Part shown: in pieces, positions 9,154 to 59,487 of the stretch | Numbering within the stretch: the first letter of the stretch is position 1 | How the letters are laid out: each line of letters begins with the position of its first letter | IMG/VR virus record: IMGVR_UViG_3300036820_000019 | Coordinates: 1-59,487 of that record | Direction: 5' to 3' (one strand) | DNA from: a virus | DNA length: 59,487 nucleotides | Notes under the pieces: generated by a model | The model's input: only the letters and a program-made list of their open reading frames with translations | Told to the model about the DNA's origin: nothing | Databases searched by the model: none | Position numbers and translations under genes: made by a program

Positions 9154-9242
9154 GACTTCCTCCTGGGGAGAGGTTGCCGGGCTCCGTGCCCGACGAGTCA
9201 ATGGTAATGCGCACTGGTCACGTGGTCAAGACAATCTTTCAG
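9154..9242 (-). promoter_or_regulatory. Early promoter with 5' hairpin leader (copy B, helicase)
   Basis: The box CTGAAAGATTGTCTTGAC spans 9225-9242. The -35 TTGACC is at 9224-9229, the spacer is 17 bases and the -10 TACCAT is at 9201-9206. The predicted start near 9194 coincides with a seven-pair hairpin at 9176-9194 (loop ACGGA), followed by CTCCCCAGGAGG. It drives the helicase and probably the whole replication block. Confidence 0.75.
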
Positions 9243-43892: not shown

Positions 43893-43982
43893 TGCGGGCC
43901 TCCTGGGGGAGAGTTTGTCGGCGCCTTGCCAACACAGGTAATGGTAATGGAGCCCGGCCGAGAGGTCAAGACAATCTTTCAG
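43893..43982 (-). promoter_or_regulatory. Early promoter with 5' hairpin leader (copy C)
   Basis: The box CTGAAAGATTGTCTTGAC is at 43965-43982, -35 TTGACC at 43964-43969, spacer 17, -10 TACCAT at 43941-43946. The hairpin GTTGGC-AAGGC-GCCGAC at 43917-43933 begins at the predicted mRNA start and is followed by CTCCCCCAGGAGG. The upstream gene's stop is inside the box. Confidence 0.75.
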
Positions 43983-45459: not shown

Positions 45460-45548
45460 GGTGCCTCCTGGGGGAGTACTTCCGGCGGCGCCTTGCCACC
45501 GAGTCAATGATCACTCAGCGCCGTCGGGAAGTCAAGACAATCTTTCAG
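45460..45548 (-). promoter_or_regulatory. Early promoter with 5' hairpin leader (copy D)
   Basis: The box CTGAAAGATTGTCTTGAC is at 45531-45548, -35 TTGACT at 45530-45535, spacer 17, -10 GATCAT at 45507-45512. The hairpin GGTGGC-AAGGC-GCCGCC lies at 45484-45500, then CTCCCCCAGGAGG. The second stem pair is G-C here instead of T-A in copies C, E and F. Confidence 0.7.
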
Positions 45549-45993: not shown

Positions 45994-46086
45994 CTGTGAA
46001 ACCTCCTGGGGGAGTGGTGCCGTTGGCGCCTTGCCAACACATTCAAGAGTACTCAGCTCGCCGGGGAAGTCAAGACAATCTTTCAG
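45994..46086 (-). promoter_or_regulatory. Early promoter with 5' hairpin leader (copy E)
   Basis: The box CTGAAAGATTGTCTTGAC is at 46069-46086, overlapping the terminase stop. The -35 TTGACT is at 46068-46073. The -10 is weaker (TACTCT at 46046-46051, spacer 16). The hairpin GTTGGC-AAGGC-GCCAAC at 46022-46038 has six Watson-Crick pairs, followed by CTCCCCCAGGAGG. Confidence 0.68.
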
Positions 46087-52092: not shown

Positions 52093-52442
52093 TTGCGTGC
52101 CTCCGGTTCGAGCTTGTAGACCTCGTCGAGGGAGATCGTCACGGCGGTGTTTATAGCGGTGAGTTGCGTCTCGGTCGAGACCTTGACGCCGTTGTCGTCG
52201 ACGTAGCCCGCGTCAAGACTTTGTTTCACGCCTATGAGCGTGCCGCAGGCCCGACCGGCGACCATCGCGTAGTGCGCCGCCTGGTCGACGAGAGCGTCGA
52301 CTTCGTTCTGCAAGTCGAGGACGAACCGCGCCAGGACGTCGCCGTCAGCTTGCAGGTCATCCCATCGTTTGACCGTGCGCGACCGGTTCTGCCAGGCGAC
52401 CGCCGCGGCGACCGCCTTCGATACGACTTGAGTGTCAGCCAT
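52080..52442 (-). CDS. Helical hypothetical protein
   Basis: This protein has 120 residues and is mostly helical (VSKAVAAAVAWQNRSRTVKR, DLQNEVDALVDQAAHYAMVA, LTAINTAVTISLDEVYKLEP). No family was recognised. ATG 52442 overlaps the DUF1643 gene by eight bases. Confidence 0.58.
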   Translation of the reverse strand: MADTQVVSKAVAAAVAWQNRSRTVKRWDDLQADGDVLARFVLDLQNEVDALVDQAAHYAMVAGRACGTLIGVKQSLDAGYVDDNGVKVSTETQLTAINTAVTISLDEVYKLEPEARKWSE

Positions 52443-52950
52443 GGGAGCGGAACCTTTCGTAGGGTGTCACGTCGGCGAGGTAGAGCGGGTGCTTCGGTGA
52501 GCCGTCGGCGTTGTGGCCGAGGCATTGCCAGGACGATCTCAGCATGAGCGGCACGGTCCCGAGGGCCTTCGACGGCGGGACACCTTTCGGCGTGCCTGCG
52601 CCCCATCCAGCCATCACTAACCCGACTCTGTGATCGGAGAGGACGTTCGCCCAGGCGATCCAGTTCAGCATGCCCTCCGGGTCGCCTGGGTCGAGGAGAT
52701 GCTTCGGCTTCGTGCAACGCCGGGCGTAGAGGTTGATGACGACGATCCCGTCGTACTCCTCGCGCTGGGCGAACTTCATGCACTTGCGGATCGTGTTGTC
52801 GTCGACCTCGGCGTCGGCCGTCGACGGGTTGAGCATGATCCACGCCATGATCTCGCCGGAGCCCCAGGTGCGCCGGAGTTCGTACCGGTAGAGACCATCG
52901 TTCGAGAGGTCGGCGGAGCGCATTATGTCAGTGTCCAGAGGTTCGCTCAC
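52435..52950 (-). CDS. DUF1643 family protein
   Basis: This protein has 171 residues. The family pattern is clear: YRYELRRTW, then AWIMLNPSTADAEVDDNTIR, KCMKFAQREEYDGIVVINLY, AWGAGT and CLGHNADGSPKHPLYL. DUF1643 proteins are widespread in phages and plasmids and their biochemical role is not known. The GTG at 52950 starts the frame, with a 23-base overlap with the upstream gene. Confidence 0.82.
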   Translation of the reverse strand: MSEPLDTDIMRSADLSNDGLYRYELRRTWGSGEIMAWIMLNPSTADAEVDDNTIRKCMKFAQREEYDGIVVINLYARRCTKPKHLLDPGDPEGMLNWIAWANVLSDHRVGLVMAGWGAGTPKGVPPSKALGTVPLMLRSSWQCLGHNADGSPKHPLYLADVTPYERFRSHG

Positions 52951-54277: not shown

Positions 54278-54372
54278 GATGCATTGCCTCCTGGGGGAGT
54301 CATTCTGTCGGCGCCTTGCCAACAGGTGAAACGGTACTCGTCGACGGCCGGGCCGTCAAGACAATCTTTCAC
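54278..54372 (-). promoter_or_regulatory. Early promoter with 5' hairpin leader (copy F)
   Basis: The box GTGAAAGATTGTCTTGAC is at 54355-54372, -35 TTGACG at 54354-54359, spacer 17, -10 TACCGT at 54331-54336. The hairpin GTTGGC-AAGGC-GCCGAC is at 54307-54323, then CTCCCCCAGGAGG. A GC-rich hairpin lies just upstream of the box. Confidence 0.75.
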
Positions 54373-54970: not shown

Positions 54971-55071
54971 GGGCTCCTCCTGGGGGAGTCGATTCGGTCG
55001 GGCGCCTTGCCCGGCTCGTTGCATCGGTGACTGTAATGGAGCACCGCGGAAAGGTCAAGACAATCTTTCAA
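54971..55071 (-). promoter_or_regulatory. Early promoter with 5' hairpin leader (copy G)
   Basis: The box TTGAAAGATTGTCTTGAC is at 55054-55071, -35 TTGACC at 55053-55058, spacer 17, -10 TACAGT at 55030-55035. The hairpin CGGGC-AAGGC-GCCCG is at 54999-55013, about ten bases after the predicted start, then CTCCCCCAGGAGG. It drives the lysine-rich gene alone. Confidence 0.72.
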
Positions 55072-55115: not shown

Positions 55116-55655
55116 CTAGTGCAAGGGCGGAGCGTGAGGGCAGCCCTGCGCGATCAGTTCATCCCGCGTCCCGACCTTCGCGCAGAGGAGACATTCGAGA
55201 ACGCCGGGGAGGTCCGAGGCGACCGACGTGTACTCGACCGGTGTCATCCGGTCCTCGGAGTCGACGGGCATGTGCGGCGCACCGACAGCGAGGATGACGT
55301 GCTCGCTGATGGCGCCGACGGCGTGCGGTTCCATGCCGGGCACGAGGTAGATATCCCCGGCCTCGGTCGGGTGGATCTTGCCGCCTATGGTGACCGTCCC
55401 GTTGCCCGCCATGATGACGAGCAAGTGGTCGCCTGGGTGCGTGTGAGGAGTGAATCCGTCGCCCGCCTCGAGTCGGATGAGGTCGGCACCGAGGGCACCG
55501 TTCGAGACGAGCCCTCGGCCGTGCGCGTTCGAGTGCGCCATCTCCGCCGGGTAGTCGCCTATGAACCGTGAGACGTCGGCCGAGACGGTGAACAGCTTGC
55601 CTCGGTCGTAGCCGAGGATGCCCTGGCCCCACTTGACGATCTGTAGTTCGCTCAC
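55116..55655 (-). CDS. Cupin-domain protein
   Basis: This protein has 179 residues with a GTGA overlap at 55655. The cupin motifs are TPHTHPGDHLLVIMAGNG with three histidine/acid ligands, and AGDIYLVPGMEPHAVGA with the last His. It should form a small beta barrel that binds a metal or sugar. A C-terminal CLLCAKVGT pair and QGCPHAPPLH may hold zinc. It is the last gene of the ParB/PAPS operon. Confidence 0.8.
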   Translation of the reverse strand: MSELQIVKWGQGILGYDRGKLFTVSADVSRFIGDYPAEMAHSNAHGRGLVSNGALGADLIRLEAGDGFTPHTHPGDHLLVIMAGNGTVTIGGKIHPTEAGDIYLVPGMEPHAVGAISEHVILAVGAPHMPVDSEDRMTPVEYTSVASDLPGVLECLLCAKVGTRDELIAQGCPHAPPLH

Positions 55656-56230
55656 TTCGGTTTCCATGCCTTCCCGAACTCGGCGGTTCCGCCGCGCTTA
55701 GTCATCGAGCCTCGGTCGAGGAGGCGAGTCACTTCCTCCGGTTCCATCTGTAGTCGAGCCGCGATCTCCTCGGGTGCCACGTCGAGGTCGACGAGCTCCG
55801 CCACGAGCTCGGCCATCGACACAACGTAGTGAGTGCCGCGTGCTCGGTTGTGCCGGATGGTCGCCATGCGCTCCTGCGCCGGGTCGGAGTCGGAAAGAAA
55901 GACGACCGGAACTTTCCCGTTCGTCGCCGCGGCGACCGGGCCCCAGCCGGCAACGGTCCACCGGTGGAAGCCGTCGATGATCGTGCCGTCCTGCCGCGCG
56001 ACTATGGGTTGCGTCCAGCCGTCCTCGAGTATCGAGATCGCGAGCAGGATCATCTCGGGCCTGGCCGTCTTGTTCGGGTTCCAATGGTTCGCAGTCAGGG
56101 AGTCGCGGTCGACCCACTTCACGGCGGAGACGGGTTGCGCCTTTTGCCCCTGCCGTTTTGCCCGCGGTAGACCGCGGGGAGCCTCCGTCGGTGCGAACTC
56201 TTTCTCGCGTGCTCCGGTCTCAGCCCTCAA
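55652..56230 (-). CDS. ParB/sulfiredoxin-like protein (IbrB-type)
   Basis: This protein has 192 residues from a TTG at 56230, in an 11-base overlap with the PAPS-reductase-like gene. ParB-like features are VDRDSLTANHWNPN, then ILEDGWTQPIVARQDG, IIDGFHRWTVAG and a helix-turn-helix-like end (LDVAPEEIAARLQMEPEEVT). The GFHRW loop replaces the usual GEHR/GxxR. It resembles IbrB, found beside IbrA-type PP-loop proteins, which fits the neighbour here. It may bind DNA or nucleotide. Confidence 0.72.
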   Translation of the reverse strand: MRAETGAREKEFAPTEAPRGLPRAKRQGQKAQPVSAVKWVDRDSLTANHWNPNKTARPEMILLAISILEDGWTQPIVARQDGTIIDGFHRWTVAGWGPVAAATNGKVPVVFLSDSDPAQERMATIRHNRARGTHYVVSMAELVAELVDLDVAPEEIAARLQMEPEEVTRLLDRGSMTKRGGTAEFGKAWKPK

Positions 56231-57422
56231 GAGTGATCCCCAGTTCCGCCTTGACCGCCGCCAGGTACGCAGTACGTAGCTTGTCGAACTCCTCCGGCTT
56301 CGGGAGCGGTCGCCATTCCCGGTTCTTGAGGTCGCCTCGGTCGGCGAGCATGTAGAGCCACTCCCACGAGAGCCCGGTCGTCGGGTGCATGGCCGAGACG
56401 AGAGGTTCGCTCGTGAGCTTGTAGTGCTGCCGGATGAAACCTTGGATGCGCCGACCGGTGTAGGTGCGGACCGACATGTCATCGACGGCCAGAAGCCGCT
56501 GTCGGATGAGTTCCTGCCAGGTGTAGCCCTCGGGCAGTTCCATCGACTCGCCGAACGAGTAGATCTCCGTGCGCGCATAGCGAGCAGCGGCGGCCGCGCC
56601 AGGCACGCGGTCGACCATCTTCGTCCAGAGGTCCGGGCAGCACGTCTTGAACACCCACAGATCCTTCATCGGTTGCTCGCCGTAGGGCGGAGCGCAGCGT
56701 TGCGACCCGTGAGGAATCCCGACCATTTCGAGGAGGTCGTAGTACTCGTTGTAGTCCCAGCCGAACGACGCGGCCGCGTGCCAGACGTCGTTCGTGTTCA
56801 TGTCGTACACCGGGTAGACCTTGGCGACGTTGGGCCCGAGGTCGTGAGCGTGGATGATCCAGTTCTCTTTGCGCCGGTTGCCGACCGCGCGGCGCCGGGT
56901 CATCGACTCAGCGGCCCGTATCCCCATCAGCACGCCGACCGAGCCCAACTCCGCCGGACACAGGAGTCCGGTCGTCTCCGGGATCGTGGGTCGTCGCTCC
57001 GGCGGTTCTACGGGGAAGCCTGGCAAGTCAGTGATGGCTTCGGGCGGTAGAGGGCGGCACCAGAGATCGCGTGCCTCCGGCGCCCACGGCCACCAGTGCG
57101 GCGACTCTCGTGAGCACCCGTTCCGGTGTTGCACCGGCAGGCACAACCATTCGAGTTCGATGCGAGGGTCCTGGGCTATGCGCCGGACGTAGTCCTCGGT
57201 CTCGAACGGTATCGCCTCCTCGTCGAAGAACACGACCCGGAGCGGCAGTTTGCCGAGGCGCTCGGCGACGGTGAGGGCGACGTTGAGGACGACCGTCGAA
57301 TCCTTGCCGCCCGAGAACGAGACCCAGACGTTGTCGAATTGCGCGTACGCCTGCGCCGTGCGGTCGAGTGCCTCGTCCCAGACGTTCCGCTCGAGTTCGT
57401 CTTTCTGCCAGGCAATGCTCAC
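56220..57422 (-). CDS. PAPS-reductase-like PP-loop protein (IbrA-type)
   Basis: This protein has 400 residues. The PP-loop WVSFSGGKDSTVVLNVAL (S37-T43) binds ATP and activates an oxygen or sulfur group. The protein then shows VVFFDEEAIPFETEDYVRRI, LMGIRAAESMTRRRAV and VYPVYDMNTNDVWHAA, as in phosphoadenosine-phosphosulfate reductase-like and DUF3440/IbrA proteins. It lacks the usual C-terminal ECGIH-type cysteine, so classical sulfate reduction is unlikely. Pairing with ParB-like genes points to nucleic-acid or nucleotide modification. Confidence 0.8.
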   Translation of the reverse strand: MSIAWQKDELERNVWDEALDRTAQAYAQFDNVWVSFSGGKDSTVVLNVALTVAERLGKLPLRVVFFDEEAIPFETEDYVRRIAQDPRIELEWLCLPVQHRNGCSRESPHWWPWAPEARDLWCRPLPPEAITDLPGFPVEPPERRPTIPETTGLLCPAELGSVGVLMGIRAAESMTRRRAVGNRRKENWIIHAHDLGPNVAKVYPVYDMNTNDVWHAAASFGWDYNEYYDLLEMVGIPHGSQRCAPPYGEQPMKDLWVFKTCCPDLWTKMVDRVPGAAAAARYARTEIYSFGESMELPEGYTWQELIRQRLLAVDDMSVRTYTGRRIQGFIRQHYKLTSEPLVSAMHPTTGLSWEWLYMLADRGDLKNREWRPLPKPEEFDKLRTAYLAAVKAELGITLEG

Positions 57423-58111
57423 TTGGCGCGGCGTTCGAGGTCGGCGAGGGCGAACATGGCTTCGCCGATTGTGTCGACCTCGAATTGCTTCGCCTGGGCC
57501 CGTAAGTACTTCACGACGACGTCGCGCTCCTCGGTCGAATTGAACACGAGAGTGACCGACACCGCGTCGGTCTCGTTGACGCCGCCCTCCGAGCCCATGG
57601 CGTGACCACGAGACTCGCCGAGGATGTCATCGAGGAATCCACCATCACCCGCCGCGGCCAGTCCACTACTCGCCATGAGGTCCCGCATCGTCTGGTCGTT
57701 GTACCCAGTGCCGAGGAGACCTTCGGGCGTTGCTTTGAGATCCTGTAGGACCTGGGCCAGAGCCAGCGGGTCGTTGCCGCCCGCCTCGGTGAGCCGGTTG
57801 AGCGCCAGGACCATGCGCGTCGCGTGGCGGTCGTTCTTCGACCTCACGCCAGTCTGCACCGGGACGAGCCATTCGTCGCCGTCGGCGTCGACGTTCTTCG
57901 GCGGAGAGTCCCCGGCGTCACGGAGGATGACAAGTTCGTCGAGGCGGCCGTGACCACCGAGGAGTCGACCCGTGCGGTCGTCGAGGACCAGCGACTCGAT
58001 GAACCCGTGCTGCTCGAACGACTCACGAATGAGGTCGAGGTCGTGCAACTTCGGGTTGACCTTCGCGGGCGCGACGTCTGAGAGTTTCATGTACCGGATA
58101 GCGAGCGGCAT
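57419..58111 (-). CDS. ParB-like nuclease-domain protein
   Basis: This protein has 230 residues. The ParB N-terminal core reads MKLSDVAPAKVNPKLHDLDL, SFEQHGFIESLVLDD, RLLGGHGRLDELVIL with GHGR as the nucleotide-binding motif, then VRSKNDRHATRMVLALNRLT. The C-terminal part (VSVTLVFNSTEERDVVVKYL) is an added alpha/beta segment. It is the first of two ParB-like proteins that flank the PP-loop gene. ATG 58111 is the likely start, with a weak ribosome binding site. Confidence 0.75.
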   Translation of the reverse strand: MPLAIRYMKLSDVAPAKVNPKLHDLDLIRESFEQHGFIESLVLDDRTGRLLGGHGRLDELVILRDAGDSPPKNVDADGDEWLVPVQTGVRSKNDRHATRMVLALNRLTEAGGNDPLALAQVLQDLKATPEGLLGTGYNDQTMRDLMASSGLAAAGDGGFLDDILGESRGHAMGSEGGVNETDAVSVTLVFNSTEERDVVVKYLRAQAKQFEVDTIGEAMFALADLERRAK

Positions 58112-59112: not shown

Positions 59113-59487
59113 TCAGTCCTTCGGGTAGGCGGCCAGAGCGCCGCGGGCCCGTGCTTCGTCAGGGTCGAATGATGGGTGGTCGGCGAGGACCATCGGCCTC
59201 TCGCCGTTCGCAAAGATAGGCGCGTGGTCGTACAGGTCGTCATCTTCGGCGCCTTCGCCCTCGTCGCCGTCGGTGCGCGACACGTCGCGCAAGGGTGCGT
59301 CGGGTGCGTGGCCGCCGCCGTTGTTCTCGCGGGCGTCACCGGCCGCCAGTTCCCGGCGCCAACGAGTGATGGTCTCGGCGTGGAACCCGAACATCTCGCC
59401 CGCCGCCTTGACGCCGATCCGGTTCGACTCGGCGACGACCTCCATTTTCGTGTCGAGCGAAGGGTCCTCCCTGCGCGACTTGTCGCG
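59113..59487 (-). CDS. Origin-spanning helix-turn-helix protein, C-terminal part
   Basis: This is the continuation of the frame that starts at 331, read through the closed ends. VAESNRIGVKAAGEMFGFHA with ETITRWRRELAAG forms a helix-turn-helix of the transposase/regulator type at about residues 80-110 of the full protein. The C-terminus is acidic (DGDEGEGAEDDDLYDHAPIF), followed by a short helix. ATG 59445 could start a 110-residue short form. The neighbouring AT-rich repeat may be its binding site. Confidence 0.75.
   Translation of the reverse strand, partial: RDKSRREDPSLDTKMEVVAESNRIGVKAAGEMFGFHAETITRWRRELAAGDARENNGGGHAPDAPLRDVSRTDGDEGEGAEDDDLYDHAPIFANGERPMVLADHPSFDPDEARARGALAAYPKD
59361..59487. 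repeat. Terminal direct repeat, right copy
   Basis: This segment is identical to bases 1-127. Joining the two copies restores one uninterrupted 192-codon gene, which supports a circular contig. Confidence 0.95.

Follow-up and report, generated by a model that had tools for sequence, protein, structure and literature searches.

Which reaction do four overlapping genes of a phage contig serve, and on which molecule does it act? IbrA-IbrB gene pairs are present in hundreds of phages and their biochemical role is not settled; a sequence-only reading of this contig had noticed such a pair in one operon with a second ParB-type gene and a cupin gene, and had proposed phage DNA, tRNA or a small molecule as the target. 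The window, i.e. the whole stretch of DNA analysed, is a phage contig of 59,487 bases with about 66% G+C in which portal, major head, tape-measure and large terminase genes were detected. Its last 127 bases are the same as its first 127, and this terminal repeat makes it probable that the window is a whole genome, read as a circle. The second half of the window has no close DNA relative among cultured phages. A gene for an HTH protein is broken by the contig ends (Table 1), and the terminal repeat rejoins its halves into one frame of about 190 codons.

The four coupled minus-strand genes at 55116-58111 were confirmed to be real, with overlaps at every junction. The PP-loop gene starts with GTG and shares a 4-base GTGA overlap with ParB1, the ParB2 gene starts with TTG and overlaps the PP-loop gene by 11 bases, and the cupin gene starts either at ATG 55667 (16-base overlap with ParB2) or at GTG 55655 (4-base GTGA overlap). 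The proteins on either side of the PP-loop protein are, as had been claimed, two different ParB types: ParB1 clearly matches ParB families (phrog_620, 4.7e-20; phrog_723, 1.2e-18) and has no Pfam match, while ParB2 matches phrog_2159 (4.6e-58), has a sub-threshold match to PF02195 and carries the motifs DG[FY]HR (DG-x-HR invariant) and NRARG (invariant). The element AAGATTGTCTTGAC occurs in the window in six exact copies, and in nine at two or fewer mismatches (0.06 expected); its copies apparently mark the heads of several transcription units, and it is likely a phage promoter or regulator site. The operon probably ends at the cupin, because a promoter-like copy, the probable start of the next transcription unit, lies directly after it. 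A DUF1643 protein is encoded among the small genes that separate the cassette from the terminase.

Table 1. Positions of the cassette genes and of other features in the window
Feature	Positions	Strand	Basis
ParB1, ParB/Srx-fold protein, 230 aa, GHGR motif; first cassette gene	57419..58111	-	phrog_620, phrog_723
IbrA-like N-type PP-loop ATPase, 400 aa, SGGKDST; PAPS-reductase fold and DUF3440	56220..57422	-	PF01507, PF11922, phrog_2302
ParB2, IbrB-like ParB-fold protein, 192 aa	55652..56230	-	phrog_2159; after IbrA in nearly all loci
SbzM-family cupin, 183 aa	55116..55667	-	PDB 9ug7 match; conserved SbzM positions
Repeated promoter-like element AAGATTGTCTTGAC, copy just past the cupin	55054..55067	-	motif count
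AAGATTGTCTTGAC, exact copies	55054-55067, 54355-54368, 46069-46082, 45531-45544, 43965-43978, 9225-9238	-	window
HTH protein gene, two halves	1-331 and 59113-59487	-	
DUF1643 protein	52435-52950	-	PF07799, 1.8e-29

The PP-loop protein matches PF01507 (4.7e-10), PF11922 (DUF3440, 9.5e-13) and phrog_2302 (1.1e-76), and its gene overlaps that of the downstream ParB-fold protein, an arrangement shared with the IbrA-IbrB genes of phages and E. coli prophages, in which the same PP-loop/DUF3440 protein is followed by the same ParB-fold protein. These matches, with that of ParB2, bear out the earlier IbrA/IbrB-type assignment, and by sequence the second and third cassette genes are an IbrA-IbrB pair, i.e. 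an N-type PP-loop ATPase and a ParB-fold protein. The window adds an upstream ParB1 and a cupin, whereas the coliphage pair has neither; in coliphage PhiR5_2, IbrA and IbrB occur without a cupin and are annotated as co-activators of prophage gene expression. Mycobacterium phage Nebkiss encodes IbrB as a fusion with an ectoine-synthase-like (EctC-like) cupin. Genes 5-8 of Arthrobacter phage Wheelbite resemble the window in the succession of a ParB, a PAPS reductase-like protein and a ParB, then HTH and terminase, but no cupin was detected there, gene 8 is annotated as a methyltransferase and the IbrA-like protein is only about 33% identical.

The SGGKDST motif is intact in the window protein and invariant in the alignment of its relatives, the catalytic cysteine motif of PAPS reductases is absent from the window protein and from the alignments, and no conserved C-terminal cysteine was found among 14 relatives; the sequence-only observation of an intact PP-loop lacking the reductase cysteine is supported. 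The predicted IbrA structure, of moderate confidence (pLDDT 74), is closest, by a weak match, to the PAPS domain of FAD synthase and to PAPS reductases. PAPS reductase is the label that such genes carry in some phage papers (PMC10434257); the fixed linkage to ParB2, ParB1 and cupins makes an ordinary auxiliary sulfur-assimilation gene with unrelated neighbours scarcely credible, and the missing cysteine motif led us to reject it. It is also very improbable that IbrA is a sulfur transferase of the DndC type whose substrate is the DNA backbone. Partial DndC matches (5.5e-9) and the ParB-fold DndB of Dnd systems (PMC12839542) would fit such a phosphorothioation-like activity, but the best stretch covers only about 70 of the 481 DndC positions, the flanks examined contain no DndA, DndD or DndE gene, and the cupin and the aldehyde dehydrogenase of related loci have no Dnd role. 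Dnd phosphorothioation was rejected, as only short stretches of DndC and not its full length were matched. PADLOC made no defence-system assignment.

The cupin is no generic family member and proved more informative than the sequence-only reading had recognised, which placed it correctly at the operon end. In addition to PF07883 and an AraC ligand-binding model, it matches PDB 9ug7, titled sulfonamide synthase SbzM from Actinokineospora mzabensis, as its best solved relative (phmmer, 4.6e-45; Foldseek, 4.7e-18, about 50% identity); the next cupins reach 15-25%. Similarity to the characterised SbzM runs the full length of the domain, with the Cys/His tail (Cys159, Cys162, Cys176, His178) included. 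All four histidines of the barrel motif (His75, His77, His81, His115; metal-binding-type) are retained, as are 42 of the 47 positions fixed in 29 bacterial SbzM homologues. Phylogenetic analysis placed the window cupin and bacterial SbzM proteins together in one 20-member group (SH-aLRT 91), the branching inside which is poorly resolved. When the phage cupin alignment was run against bacterial genomes, nearly all hits were SbzM homologues of actinomycetes; these lie in chromosomes, and many have an aldehyde dehydrogenase nearby, e.g. in Streptomyces antioxidans, whose cluster is named in the altemicidin-pathway paper (PMC6331615). On this evidence the cupin is an SbzM-family sulfonamide synthase homologue, and it quite probably performs SbzM-like cysteine chemistry. 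SbzM makes 2-sulfamoylacetaldehyde from L-cysteine, and SbzJ, an aldehyde dehydrogenase, oxidises this product to 2-sulfamoylacetate (PMC6331615; PMC9113183); this order of SbzM and then aldehyde dehydrogenase is known from altemicidin synthesis (PMC6331615). No aldehyde dehydrogenase, the partner that SbzJ provides in the altemicidin/SB-203208 system, was detectable within the window, and the product of the phage cupin is predicted from its family. The antibiotic gene cluster contains AMP-ligases (PMC9113183), whereas among the neighbours of the phage cupins a PP-loop ATPase and two ParB-fold proteins take the place of ligase, carrier and GNAT protein.

The sequence-only reading had named rare co-occurrence of the four genes elsewhere as the outcome that would count against it; the search was run, and the gene set belongs together. 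Scans with the cupin or ParB1 alone recovered few relatives, the cupin scan also seeding six chance loci (L019-L024), and alignments were therefore used as queries. All counts are from viral contigs, many of them partial, with mechanical gene calls. The PP-loop alignment recovered 80 loci, 56 of them non-redundant; ParB-family neighbours are present in nearly all of these 56 and a cupin in 39, with a Cupin_2 match in 32 of the 39 cupin members. Across 89 PP-seeded loci, PP-loop protein and ParB2 occur together in 86 and ParB1 in 62. The usual order is ParB1-cupin-IbrA-IbrB, and ParB1-IbrA-IbrB-cupin, the order of the window, is found sometimes. Besides SbzM-type cupins, the loci contain a second, larger kind with the motif YIDGCTDSLL...HTHPS...HPDSDFGP (alignment A7), which is much commoner, occupies the same slot and is used by most relatives; the two never share a locus among those examined. 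Reverse tests agreed: with the larger cupin (bicupin) as seed, IbrA was found in 77 and ParB1 in 71 of 80 loci, and with the SbzM type as seed, 22 of 23 loci (12 or 13 groups at 80% IbrA identity) contained IbrA, not counting a weak PP-loop match in L201, 21 contained ParB2 and 19 ParB1. Since relatives of all four genes cluster in unrelated viral contigs, the set is far from a chance grouping.

The neighbours of the pair point to metabolism. An aldehyde dehydrogenase stands beside the cupin in 9 of the 23 SbzM-type loci, up to a five-gene run ParB1-SbzM-ALDH-IbrA-IbrB (L190), so that the SbzM-ALDH gene order of the antibiotic pathway is seen again in several phages. Cupin-less loci can have a sodium:solute symporter or a TctC receptor between ParB1 and IbrA. 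As this slot holds either a cupin or a transporter-type gene, it is suggested to supply a small precursor that is cupin-made or imported. Some IbrA cassettes have as further neighbours a short second PP-loop protein and a class II glutamine amidotransferase (L078, 5354-6037; L083, 8428-8991), which suggests an amidation step in some versions. In another locus (L006, 9117-10226), an SbzM-like cupin carries a fused C-terminal domain, about 180 aa long, that is uracil-glycosylase-like by eye and has no Pfam match. We consider it quite unlikely that IbrA-IbrB are instead regulators that co-activate phage or prophage transcription, the cupin being a ligand sensor like AraC-type cupins. The PhiR5_2 annotation and the AraC model match of the window cupin agree with such a role, but the ATP site of the PP-loop is invariant, the cupin retains all four SbzM histidines, and aldehyde dehydrogenase, amidotransferase and transporter partners suit metabolic enzymes.

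ParB1 is shared with known DNA-modification cassettes. Relatives of ParB1 head phage operons of TET/JBP-kinase or FolE-QueD-QueE-QueC DNA-modification genes, as in phage Cinna (ParB-TET/JBP-kinase-terminase); Gordonia phage CaiB has the same layout and is annotated with nucleotide modification (PMC9302106). These actinophage cassettes, ParB-TET/JBP-kinase-terminase and ParB-FolE-QueD-QueE-QueC-DpdA, share with the window a ParB1-family first gene and overlapping modification genes, and usually lie just upstream of the terminase; cupin, IbrA and IbrB stand where they have TET/JBP or 7-deazaguanine enzymes. ParB1-seeded loci were collected with alignment A10, the broader alignment A9 being too diverse, and 28 of 81 carry at least one marker (FolE/QueD/QueE/QueC/DpdA-like, TET/JBP, kinase or IbrA): preQ0-pathway or DpdA-like genes in 14 (13 with three or more), TET/JBP in 10 and IbrA in 3, while the other 53 have none of the tested markers. 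FolE, QueD and QueC were confirmed by Pfam, a radical-SAM protein was read as QueE, and DpdA was assigned by eye. For the preQ0 route, modification of phage DNA has been proven by experiment (PMC6884629), and DpdB, which has a ParB fold, serves in inserting bases into DNA (PMC12839542). Loci with IbrA contain no TET, kinase or 7-deazaguanine gene and share ParB1 with the cassettes that do; as none of the 189 IbrA/cupin loci has a 7-deazaguanine or TET marker, the cassettes resemble interchangeable sets that follow a common ParB1. In 13 of the 81 loci, ABC-ATPase/GNAT-type proteins are encoded close to ParB1 (e.g. L236, 597-1817; L281, 7469-9088); they are possibly another DNA-modification chemistry. 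A protein of Mycobacterium phage Indlovu (L238, 809-1687) is annotated as queuine tRNA-ribosyltransferase, an annotation that may be wrong; its only Pfam match is a weak one to Tet_JBP (0.0028).

A large terminase gene follows downstream on the same strand in 119 of the 145 IbrA loci with enough sequence (median distance 777 bases), a measure of adjacency and not an independent discovery, as the terminase queries were drawn from the same loci. These terminases form six separate groups. The window is an exception, with its terminase about 7 kb downstream of the cassette. Among the three targets proposed by the sequence-only reading, DNA is favoured because of the position upstream of the terminase and the ParB1 common to TET/JBP and 7-deazaguanine cassettes, and by this analogy the cassette probably modifies phage DNA. 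That it acts on host tRNA or yields a free small molecule (a sulfonamide metabolite, e.g. an aminoacyl-tRNA-synthetase-type inhibitor) appears unlikely. PP-loop enzymes, whose fold is present here, typically modify tRNA; SbzM serves antibiotic synthesis, and many of its homologues on actinomycete chromosomes, among them that of S. antioxidans (PMC6331615), adjoin an aldehyde dehydrogenase gene; and transporters occur in some cassette loci. Set against this, none of the phage cassettes examined comes with a gene for a carrier protein, a ligase or export, DNA is the better fit for two ParB-fold proteins and the terminase linkage, and ParB1 is common to DNA-modification operons.

With DNA as the favoured target, and a cysteine-derived group as the likely building block because the cupin belongs to the SbzM family, we think it reasonably likely that the four genes are an interchangeable phage DNA-hypermodification cassette that uses such a group. 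The cupin, judged by its family and conserved residues, would oxidise and decarboxylate L-cysteine to 2-sulfamoylacetaldehyde or a close product. An aldehyde dehydrogenase, a neighbouring gene in some phages and presumably host-supplied for the window, would convert it to 2-sulfamoylacetate. IbrA, from its PP-loop fold, would adenylate the acid or the target base with ATP and release pyrophosphate. By analogy with DpdB and with ParB1-headed operons, ParB1 and IbrB would bind DNA and/or hydrolyse nucleotide and install the group before packaging. Protection from host restriction is a plausible result, as is the escape from host defences that the sequence-only reading had suggested. A sulfonamide-bearing base as the product is a tentative prediction. 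We advance with yet more reserve the broader idea of a widespread undescribed system in which an IbrA PP-loop ligase and its ParB-fold partners would place a cysteine-derived sulfonamide (sulfamoylacetyl-type) on DNA bases.

The full cassette was found neither in cultured phages nor in the literature searched (open-licence papers), and that it has been overlooked so far would be explained by both cupin types having no match in 50,697 cultured phage records. The linkage of IbrA-IbrB to an SbzM-type sulfonamide synthase and to a ParB1-terminase modification locus allows a concrete reaction to be proposed for the pair. If true, this would add a new chemistry to phage DNA in the form of a sulfonamide and assign a biochemical function to IbrA-IbrB; it would also provide a new candidate route of protection against restriction, and enzymes of use in sulfonamide and base chemistry.
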